Shown piece after piece: positions 21,593 through 23,981 of a DNA stretch of 64,000 nucleotides. Numbering within the stretch: position 1 is the stretch's first letter; every line of letters starts with the position of its first letter. The notes under the pieces are model-generated. The model saw only the letters and a list, made by a program, of their open reading frames with translations. It made no database searches and had not been told where the DNA came from. A program made the translations under genes and the position numbers. Source of the DNA: Quadrisphaera setariae (lineage in GTDB: Bacteria > Actinomycetota > Actinomycetes > Actinomycetales > Quadrisphaeraceae); NCBI RefSeq assembly GCF_008041935.1, contig NZ_VKAC01000008.1:124001-188000 (forward strand), in the 5' to 3' direction.

Positions 21593-22633
21593 GTGGACTT
21601 CCCCGCCACCGCCGGCTTCGCCGTGCTCGACCTCGAGACCACCGGGTTCTCCCCGCGCACGGAGCGCATCGTGGAGGTCGCCGTCGTCCACGTCACCCCC
21701 GACGGCACCTCCGGCGCGGAGTGGTCCACGCTCGTGCACCCCGGCCGGCCGACGGTCGGCGCCACGCACGTCCACGGCATCCGCCCCGTCGACGTCCGCG
21801 AGGCCCCGCGGTTCGCCGAGGTCGTGCCCGCCCTGGTCGAGGTGCTGGCCGGGCGCGTGCTCGTCGCGCACAACGCCGGCTTCGACGTGCCGTTCCTGCG
21901 GGCCGAGCTCGAGCGGGCGGGCGTGGACATGCCCGAGGCGCCGCAGCTGTGCACGCTCGCCGAGAGCCGGCGGCACCTGCCGCAGCTGGCCGGGCGCAAG
22001 CTCGCCGACTGCTGCGCCGCGGCGGGCGTGCGCCTCACCGGCGCGCACTCCGCCCTCGGCGACGCGCGCGCCACCGCCGAGCTGCTCGGGTGCTACCTCG
22101 CCGCCGGTGGGCCGGGCGCCCACGCCGCGCTGCTGCGGCAGGCCGCGTCGACGCGGTGGCCGGTCGTCGCTCCCCCGCGGCGCGCGCCCGACCTGCGGCA
22201 GCGCAGGGTGGTCGGGGGGCGCGTCGTCGGGGCTGGTCCTGGTGCGTGGACCGCGTTCCGGAGCGCGGGTGAGTTACGACCCCCGGTGCCGTTATCAGAC
22301 CGTGCGGCGGCGAAGCCGCTCCCCCGGTCGCTGCGACCCGGCGACGCCGTCGTCTTCACCGGCGGCGACCCGGAGGTGCGCGCCCTCCTGGAGCAGCGCT
22401 GCCGCGAGCGCGGCCTGCGGGTGACCAGTGCGGTGTCGGGCCGGACGGCGCTGCTCGTCACCGACGACGTGCACTCCGGCACCACGAAGGCGCGGCGGGC
22501 GCTGCAGCTGGGAACACCGGTGGTCGACACCGCCACCGCCGCGGTGCTCATCGAGACCTCCGAGCTCGCCACCTCCGACTCGGCAGCACCGGCGGTCATC
22601 GACCTGCGTCCGGCGCGCGTCCGCGCGTGGTGA
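21593..22633 (+). CDS. DEDDh 3'-5' exonuclease with C-terminal BRCT domain
   Basis: A 346-residue protein. Residues about 8-170 form a DnaQ-type exonuclease with DLETTG (Exo I), HNAGFD (Exo II) and HSALGDARAT (Exo III, with the DEDDh histidine). After a basic linker, residues about 245-325 form a BRCT domain (VVFTGG...GLRVTSAVSGRTALLVTDD...ALQLGTPVV). This architecture is common in actinobacteria and is taken to trim DNA 3' ends in repair. GTG at 21593 has no clear ribosome site. It is followed by the photolyase-like gene on the same strand, so both may belong to DNA repair. Confidence 0.88.
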   Translation: MDFPATAGFAVLDLETTGFSPRTERIVEVAVVHVTPDGTSGAEWSTLVHPGRPTVGATHVHGIRPVDVREAPRFAEVVPALVEVLAGRVLVAHNAGFDVPFLRAELERAGVDMPEAPQLCTLAESRRHLPQLAGRKLADCCAAAGVRLTGAHSALGDARATAELLGCYLAAGGPGAHAALLRQAASTRWPVVAPPRRAPDLRQRRVVGGRVVGAGPGAWTAFRSAGELRPPVPLSDRAAAKPLPRSLRPGDAVVFTGGDPEVRALLEQRCRERGLRVTSAVSGRTALLVTDDVHSGTTKARRALQLGTPVVDTATAAVLIETSELATSDSAAPAVIDLRPARVRAW

Positions 22634-22700: not shown

Positions 22701-23981
22701 GTGCGCCTTCCCACCCCGCCGGTCACCCGCGGAGATGACCGGTCGGAGGTGGTCGCGTGGGTGCGCGAGCACCTGGGACACCTCTCCTCCGACGACGTGC
22801 GAGCCTCCCCGGTCCGGGGTGGGCAGACGGCCGCCGACACGGCGCTGGCGACGCTCGACCTCACCGGGTACGCGGCCAGGCGCAGCAACGTCCTCCCCGA
22901 GCCCAGCCGCGGCGCGAGCCGCCTCTCGCCGTACATCCGCCACGGGCTGCTGACGCTGCCCGCCGTGTGGGAGGCCGCGGGCGGCGCTCCCCACCGCGAC
23001 CGCGAGAAGTTCCGCGACGAGCTCATGTGGCAGGAGTACTCCCGCCACGTGTACGCCCGGGTCGGCTCGGCCAACGGGGCACCGCTGCGCTTCGACGCCC
23101 CCGTGCCCGCGCCGGGCAGCGCCCCGCCGGCTCCCCCGGTCAGCCCCGACGACCCGTGGCCGCGGCAGATGGCGTGCATGGACGCGACCACCACCGAGCT
23201 CCGCGACAACGGCTGGCTGGTCAACCAGACCCGCATGTGGCTCGCCTCGCAGTGGGCGGTCCGCGCCGGTGCCGACTGGCGGCAGGGCGAGCAGGAGATG
23301 TACCGCAACCTCCTCGACGGCTCCCGGGCCGCCAACCGCCTGGGCTGGCAGTGGGCGATCGGCACCGGCACCGGCCGGGTCTACGGGTTCAGCCGCTGGC
23401 AGGTGGAGAAGCGGGCGCCGCAGCTGTGCGCGAGCTGCGCGCTGCGCGACGCCTGCCCGGTGCAGGACTGGCCCGAGGCGCAGTCGGGCCCGAAGGTCGA
23501 GGGGCCCGACACCCTAGGTGGCGGGGAGACCGACGGCGGTCCGGAGGACCCGCTCGTCACCGGCGAACCCGAGGCGGTCTGGCTGACGGCGGAGTCCCTC
23601 GGGGACGCCGACCCGGCCCTGGCGGCCCACCCCGACCTGCCGGCGGTGTTCGTCTTCGACGAGCCGCTGCTGCGGAAGCTCGAGCTGTCGGGCAAGCGCC
23701 TGGTGTTCCTCGCCGAGGCGCTGGCCGAGATCGGGGAGGCCGGGCAGCTCGAGGTGCACCTGGGCGACCCGGTCACCGAGCTGGCCGGTCGGCCCCTCGC
23801 GACGACCTGGGCGTACGTCCCGGGGTTCAAGCGCCGCTCGGCGCAGCTGGACGTGGTGGCCCTGCACCCCTGGCCGTGGCTGCGCCGGCCCGGGTCCGGT
23901 TCGCTGCGCTCGTTCAGCGCGTGGGCGGGACGGCCGAGCCGTCCGCGCCCGGCGCGCAACAGCGGCGGCCGCCGCCGCTGA
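22701..23981 (+). CDS. Photolyase/cryptochrome-like flavoprotein with reversed domain order and four cysteines
   Basis: A 426-residue protein. Residues about 70-260 look like the FAD-binding half of photolyases: SRLSPYIRHGLL (74-84), DELMWQEYSRH (106-116), NGWLVNQTRMWLASQW (170-185) and GWQWAIGTGTG (215-225). Cys159, Cys243, Cys246 and Cys252 fall where the iron-sulfur photolyases (PhrB/CryB group) carry their 4Fe-4S ligands, although the last spacing is shorter. Residues about 290-385 then resemble the photolyase N-terminal alpha/beta domain (PALAAHPDLPAVFVFDEP, HLGDPVTEL), here placed last. GTG at 22701 is chosen for GAGGG upstream; GTG at 22680 is possible. Repair or light-sensing role is inferred. 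Confidence 0.8.
   Translation: MRLPTPPVTRGDDRSEVVAWVREHLGHLSSDDVRASPVRGGQTAADTALATLDLTGYAARRSNVLPEPSRGASRLSPYIRHGLLTLPAVWEAAGGAPHRDREKFRDELMWQEYSRHVYARVGSANGAPLRFDAPVPAPGSAPPAPPVSPDDPWPRQMACMDATTTELRDNGWLVNQTRMWLASQWAVRAGADWRQGEQEMYRNLLDGSRAANRLGWQWAIGTGTGRVYGFSRWQVEKRAPQLCASCALRDACPVQDWPEAQSGPKVEGPDTLGGGETDGGPEDPLVTGEPEAVWLTAESLGDADPALAAHPDLPAVFVFDEPLLRKLELSGKRLVFLAEALAEIGEAGQLEVHLGDPVTELAGRPLATTWAYVPGFKRRSAQLDVVALHPWPWLRRPGSGSLRSFSAWAGRPSRPRPARNSGGRRR

Follow-up and report, generated by a model that had tools for sequence, protein, structure and literature searches.

A gene for a reversed-order, cysteine-bearing photolyase, probably of the cyclobutane pyrimidine dimer type, in Quadrisphaera setariae

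Photolyases with the FAD (flavin adenine dinucleotide)-binding domain ahead of the α/β domain have been described as NewPHL or SPL. In excerpts of PMC13274461, NewPHLs or SPLs are enzymes of inverted topology that repair cyclobutane pyrimidine dimers (CPDs) in single-stranded DNA. Reversed-order photolyases are also described in excerpts of PMC9649867, and SPL is one of eight groups in an excerpt of PMC9178010. The Phr4, Phr5, and Phr6 proteins of picocyanobacteria have the FAD domain first, the photolyase domain last, and four iron–sulfur (Fe–S) cysteines (PMC9426592). Here, we describe a gene from a 64,000-nucleotide stretch of Quadrisphaera setariae (assembly GCF_008041935.1, contig NZ_VKAC01000008.1, positions 124,001 to 188,000 of the forward strand), the whole of which is called the window. 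Its product is very probably a cysteine-bearing member of the short, reversed-order SPL/NewPHL photolyases, with light-driven CPD repair as the most likely function. An earlier note, made from the letters of the window, had suggested a new branch for repair or light sensing. The reversed arrangement is real, but the protein (the query) adds one more ordinary example to a known type, and the new branch is not upheld because NewPHL/SPL and Phr4/Phr5/Phr6, the latter with both the order and the four cysteines, had been described before.

The features of the gene, in window coordinates, are as follows.

22701..23981, plus strand, coding sequence of the reversed-order photolyase, 426 amino acids, GTG start, stop included (open reading frame and homology)
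22821..23474, plus strand, N-terminal FAD-binding (catalytic) domain, about residues 41–258 (PF03441, structure alignment, profiles)
23175-23381, plus strand, PF03441 match, residues 159–227, E 2.4e-11 (Pfam)
23175..23177, plus strand, codon of Cys159, predicted Fe–S ligand 1 (alignment, conservation)
23427..23429, plus strand, codon of Cys243, predicted Fe–S ligand 2 (alignment, conservation)
23436..23438, plus strand, codon of Cys246, predicted Fe–S ligand 3 (alignment, conservation)
23454..23456, plus strand, codon of Cys252, predicted Fe–S ligand 4, with shortened spacing (alignment, conservation, gaps)
23574..23927, plus strand, C-terminal α/β domain, about residues 292–409, homologous to the class I photolyase N-terminal domain (profiles, model)

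An AGGG lies seven bases 5' of the GTG start. The nearest named relative, a protein of Quadrisphaera sp. INWT6, is 90% identical to the query, and 472 of the 488 pattern-matching stretches encode a relative; a chance open reading frame is thereby ruled out. Conservation was counted in the nearest 80 of these 472 relatives, or 79 after L030, which runs off its contig, was left out.

The FAD domain is N-terminal because the PF03441 match lies there and because residues 35–223 align with residues 202–396 of the class I photolyase 1tez (E 9.5e-13, PDB), in the C-terminal half of class I photolyases. The FAD-domain profile matched class I photolyases with an hhalign P of 99.3% over 180 columns, and class I supplied the closest catalytic domain among solved structures in the PDB searches, in agreement with the class I/III-like catalytic domain of SPL/NewPHL. 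At E values up to 1, PF03441 was the sole Pfam family found on the query. No sensory or output domain was added to it, and the matches did not include the PF04244-type N-terminal domain of the FeS-BCPs, the prokaryotic (6-4) photolyases such as PhrB and CryB. Nor does a PF00875 domain precede the FAD domain, as it does in class I.

The active-site positions were compared in a joint alignment. The class I rows were 22 of the 25 PF00875 loci (L109–L133), the other three being without the motif used to cut the core; the row labels "class I" and "NewPHL-like" are our own, given from family matches and annotation. Asn175, Trp193, Trp216, and Trp218 are Asn, Trp, Trp, and Trp in all 79 relatives and all 22 class I rows. 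In the nine FeS-BCPs, the columns of Asn175, Trp193, and Trp216 hold His, Pro, and Met (9/9 each), and that of Trp218 holds Trp in one of nine, so the query has neither the active-site His nor the other FeS-BCP residues at these columns. We take the active-site columns, with their Anacystis numbering, to be those whose counterparts in characterized photolyases contact the dimer or FAD. At these columns the residues are like those of CPD photolyases and unlike those of PhrB, despite the cysteines of (6-4) enzymes. The cofactors, substrate, mechanism, and cluster role proposed here are carried over from the family. Light would excite reduced FAD in the N-terminal domain, the excited FAD would pass an electron to a CPD, and the dimer would split, with the electron then returning. 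NewPHL/SPL are reported to prefer single-stranded DNA, and the chances that the query shares this preference are about even.

Cys159, Cys243, Cys246, and Cys252 each pair with one of the four cysteines conserved in the nine FeS-BCPs (P 96.0%), and all four are kept in the 79 relatives. The gaps between them are 83-2-5 in all 80 rows, query included, versus 87 or 88-2-12 in the FeS-BCPs, one of which (L136) has a second cysteine that also gives 83. The suggestion in the earlier note that these residues fit the PhrB/CryB ligands with a shorter last spacing was thus borne out. Two Deinococcus relatives have gaps of 84-2-6, and none of the four alphaproteobacterial relatives has the full set, with L105 bearing a cysteine at the first position. 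In an excerpt of PMC12082625, the [4Fe-4S] ligands of a Caulobacter enzyme are C349, C437, C440, and C453. By analogy with the family, a [4Fe-4S] cluster is most likely bound by the four cysteines of the query and would serve mainly as a structural element.

The C-terminal profile (57 of the 80 rows of the full alignment) was compared with a profile of class I N-terminal domains (21 of the 22 class I rows, one being too short). They matched with an hhalign P of 96.3% (E 1.8e-9, 71 columns), and 20 column-shuffled decoys of the C-terminal profile reached at most 0.70%. The C-termini of the two Deinococcus relatives matched the same domains at P 95.3% over 139 columns, and one of them gave a PF00875 match at residues 300–395 (E 7.2e-4, 20 bits, under the 26.6-bit cut-off). 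The AlphaFold2 model of the whole protein, a confident one (mean pLDDT 94.7, pTM 0.92), shows alternating strands and helices over residues 292–409, and Foldseek with this model placed photolyases on top (E 2.7e-8), PhrB included (TMq 0.45). We take the domain order of the query, with the FAD domain first and the α/β domain last, to be reversed by descent. It is extremely unlikely that the C-terminal region is an unrelated α/β domain, which would leave nothing reversed by descent, although several searches lean that way: PF00875 matched neither the query (E up to 1) nor any of the 80 family members (E up to 0.1), the profile search of the PDB with the C-terminal profile returned only two unrelated chains (best E 0.41), and the four alphaproteobacterial C-termini reached only P 23.5% against class I. 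When the domain was folded alone (pLDDT 81.3), Foldseek found nothing at E ≤0.001 and ranked a PIN domain first (E 0.048); class II photolyases, however, followed at ranks 2–4 (TMq 0.49–0.52, E 0.085–0.097). The hhalign matches of both the actinobacterial and the Deinococcus C-termini, set against the decoys, and the PF00875 match in Deinococcus argue for common descent. The reversed order claimed in the earlier note accordingly stands, as does its reading of the C-terminal region as a photolyase α/β domain, by homology rather than by the fold of the isolated domain; of the two family searches it had proposed for confirming the order, PF03441 located the N-terminal half and PF00875 remained silent on the query. 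The C-terminal domain would be the usual α/β domain moved to the other end, where it most likely closes the FAD site.

That the query is a reversed-order (6-4) photolyase, as PMC9426592 proposes for Phr4/Phr5/Phr6, is improbable, but a number of observations speak for it or weaken the assignment to CPD repair. The four cysteines are shared with the FeS-BCPs. In excerpts of PMC9426592, (6-4) repair by the reversed-order Phr4/Phr5/Phr6 is deduced from their cysteines, and survival data under ultraviolet C (UV-C) are given in support of it; phr4/phr5 protected E. coli from UV-C with no significant difference between light and dark. Several active-site columns also separate the enzyme types poorly. 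Glu107 is Glu in 79/79 relatives and Gln in 9/9 FeS-BCPs, but class I is mixed (Glu in 12 and Gln in 10 of 22), and this column is therefore not cleanly diagnostic of the CPD type. Met179 is Met in 76/79 relatives and 16/22 class I rows, with Leu in the other three and six, and the FeS-BCPs have Leu (9/9); Asn212 is Asn in the FeS-BCPs too (9/9), and neither it nor Trp110 discriminates. The agreement among the 79 relatives is in part kinship, because they are the nearest of 472. The cysteine pairing has its own weakness: masking the cysteine columns lowered the FeS-BCP match to P 77.7% (decoys ≤0.62%) and left it short of cysteines 2–4, so that the pairing of these three leans partly on the cysteines themselves, whereas that of cysteine 1 survives. 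Against the (6-4) assignment stand the replacement of the FeS-BCP His by Asn in the query and all 79 relatives, as in class I, the equally class I-like Trp193, Trp216, and Trp218, and a separate FeS-BCP (PF04244) gene in the same genome; moreover, excerpts of PMC13274461 and PMC9649867 describe SPL as repairing CPDs. CPD repair is hence the reading we prefer. A cryptochrome-like light sensor that has lost repair, perhaps in partnership with the window's LOV protein, is less likely still. The photolyase homology, the LOV-like motif, and the class I photolyase and FeS-BCP elsewhere in the genome, which could cover repair, would be compatible with such a sensor. Some 26 kb separate the photolyase gene from the LOV-like motif (50727) and a GGDEF (50196), both on the minus strand and belonging to the protein named in the earlier note, and a partnership with the LOV protein was rejected on account of this distance. 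The residues of repair enzymes are kept in all 79 relatives and PF03441 has no sensory or output companion on the query. The sequence offered no support for cryptochrome signalling, nor for the light-sensing role floated in the earlier note.

A FAD-domain tree was built from 55 rows, with 17 of the 79 relatives; it is unrooted and leaves out class II, DASH, and the named SPL/NewPHL members. A branch separates each of the five groups from all other rows, and the reversed-order rows make up a grade: the FeS-BCP and actinobacterial rows are set against the rest (93/89, not starred), followed by Deinococcus and then by the alphaproteobacterial rows with class I (96/88). A single clade of all 24 reversed-order rows was not rejected (AU, approximately unbiased, p 0.22), and neither was one of the 20 cysteine-bearing rows (p 0.335). 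We regard it as doubtful that the reversed-order proteins make up a grade that connects FeS-BCP with class I rather than a single side branch. The order of such a grade, equally tentative, would be FeS-BCP, the actinobacterial cysteine-bearing SPL, the Deinococcus cysteine-bearing SPL, the cysteine-free alphaproteobacterial NewPHL-like proteins, and class I. Were the grade true, a FAD-first arrangement combining a CPD-type site and an Fe–S cluster would represent an intermediate or the ancestral condition, and repeated changes of domain order would follow. SPLs have been proposed as ancestral earlier, in excerpts of PMC9498864 and PMC9649867.

The gene is not a displaced part of the ordinary photolyase of this genome, which is present elsewhere in it. 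On another contig of the genome, a lone PF00875 domain (L135, G000:C2:434995-435351, 46.7 bits) lies in an open reading frame at 1393-1866 on the minus strand of its locus (157 amino acids) that does not also code for a FAD domain. Upstream of the photolyase gene, at a distance of 67 bp, is an exonuclease gene (PF00929, DnaQ) with a C-terminal BRCT domain (21593-22633, plus strand); downstream are genes for a periplasmic binding protein and for two FecCD permeases. An exonuclease–BRCT gene was found near the photolyase in two of 86 loci, L023 (Quadrisphaera) and L030 (an Actinomycetales metagenome-assembled genome whose SPL is 88% identical), and a conserved operon was ruled out on this count, several of the loci being short on one side. 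Full SPL-type matches (E <1e-140) occurred in 17 of the 59 genomes of the relatives search, own genome included, and some match at E 0.001 in 43 of them; across the phylum, 20 of 296 genomes gave SPL-type matches at E 1e-40. G050, a relative from the same order, has two SPL-type genes (G050:C313:107-1273 and G050:C426:7912-9165; 63% and 59% identity to the query) in an assembly 73% complete in about 460 contigs. A viral gene was ruled out, as the two pattern-matching stretches in viral_contigs did not encode a relative, and so was a known defence gene, with no PADLOC family matched. The 103 matching plasmid records were all below 60% identity and none spanned more than 80% of the query; a plasmid gene was likewise rejected. 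Six of the eight top SPL-like plasmid matches were retrieved. In the alphaproteobacterial plasmid stretches L104 and L105, an AarF/ABC1/UbiB kinase gene adjoins the photolyase-like gene, and in L108 it lies three genes downstream; these are the three annotated stretches in which the neighborhood was read, and the fourth, L106, bears no annotation.

In the query, a CPD-type active site occurs together with the Fe–S cysteines of (6-4) enzymes, in a reversed domain order. The combination is relevant to the argument of PMC9426592 that such cysteines are predictive of (6-4) specificity, and to the origin of the photolyase family. The family-profile search of the PDB found no solved structure that reaches into the C-terminal domain, and a well-conserved actinobacterial member could therefore serve structural work.

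Among the described systems, Phr6 and Phr4/Phr5 of Cyanobium and marine Synechococcus share the domain order and the four Fe–S cysteines with the query (PMC9426592). The cysteines of Phr4 (C169, C254, C257, and C263) have gaps of 84-2-5 versus 83-2-5 in the query, and in most of those strains the two domains are encoded by separate genes, phr4 and phr5 (PMC9426592). This likeness is drawn from the published description, and the authors of that study infer (6-4) repair whereas the residues of the query suggest CPD repair. SPLs resemble the query in being short, with a class I/III-like catalytic domain, and an Fe–S cluster and CPD repair are reported for them in an excerpt of PMC9649867. As described in excerpts of PMC9649867, PMC9178010, and PMC9498864, they differ in that the query has the homologous domain at its C-terminus. 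NewPHLs (Dinoroseobacter shibae and Methylobacterium mesophilicum; excerpts of PMC13274461 and PMC9426592) share the inverted topology with the FAD domain first, but Prochlorococcus Phr7, which is grouped with NewPHL (PMC9426592), has none of the cysteines, and the four alphaproteobacterial NewPHL-like relatives, unlike the query, have no full set. The Rhodococcus and Rhodococcoides relatives are 61–64% identical to the query, and a member from Rhodococcus fascians, reportedly studied by Xu in 2021, is said to have FAD, an iron–sulfur cluster, and CPD repair activity; a literature search for this member returned nothing about it. The FeS-BCPs have the same four cysteines in one-to-one alignment and differ in the opposite domain order, the PF04244 N-terminal domain, the other active-site residues, and the longer last cysteine gap. 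The class I CPD photolyases have the opposite domain order and no Fe–S cysteines, but among solved structures their catalytic domain is the closest to that of the query, with the same residues at the four fully conserved active-site columns.
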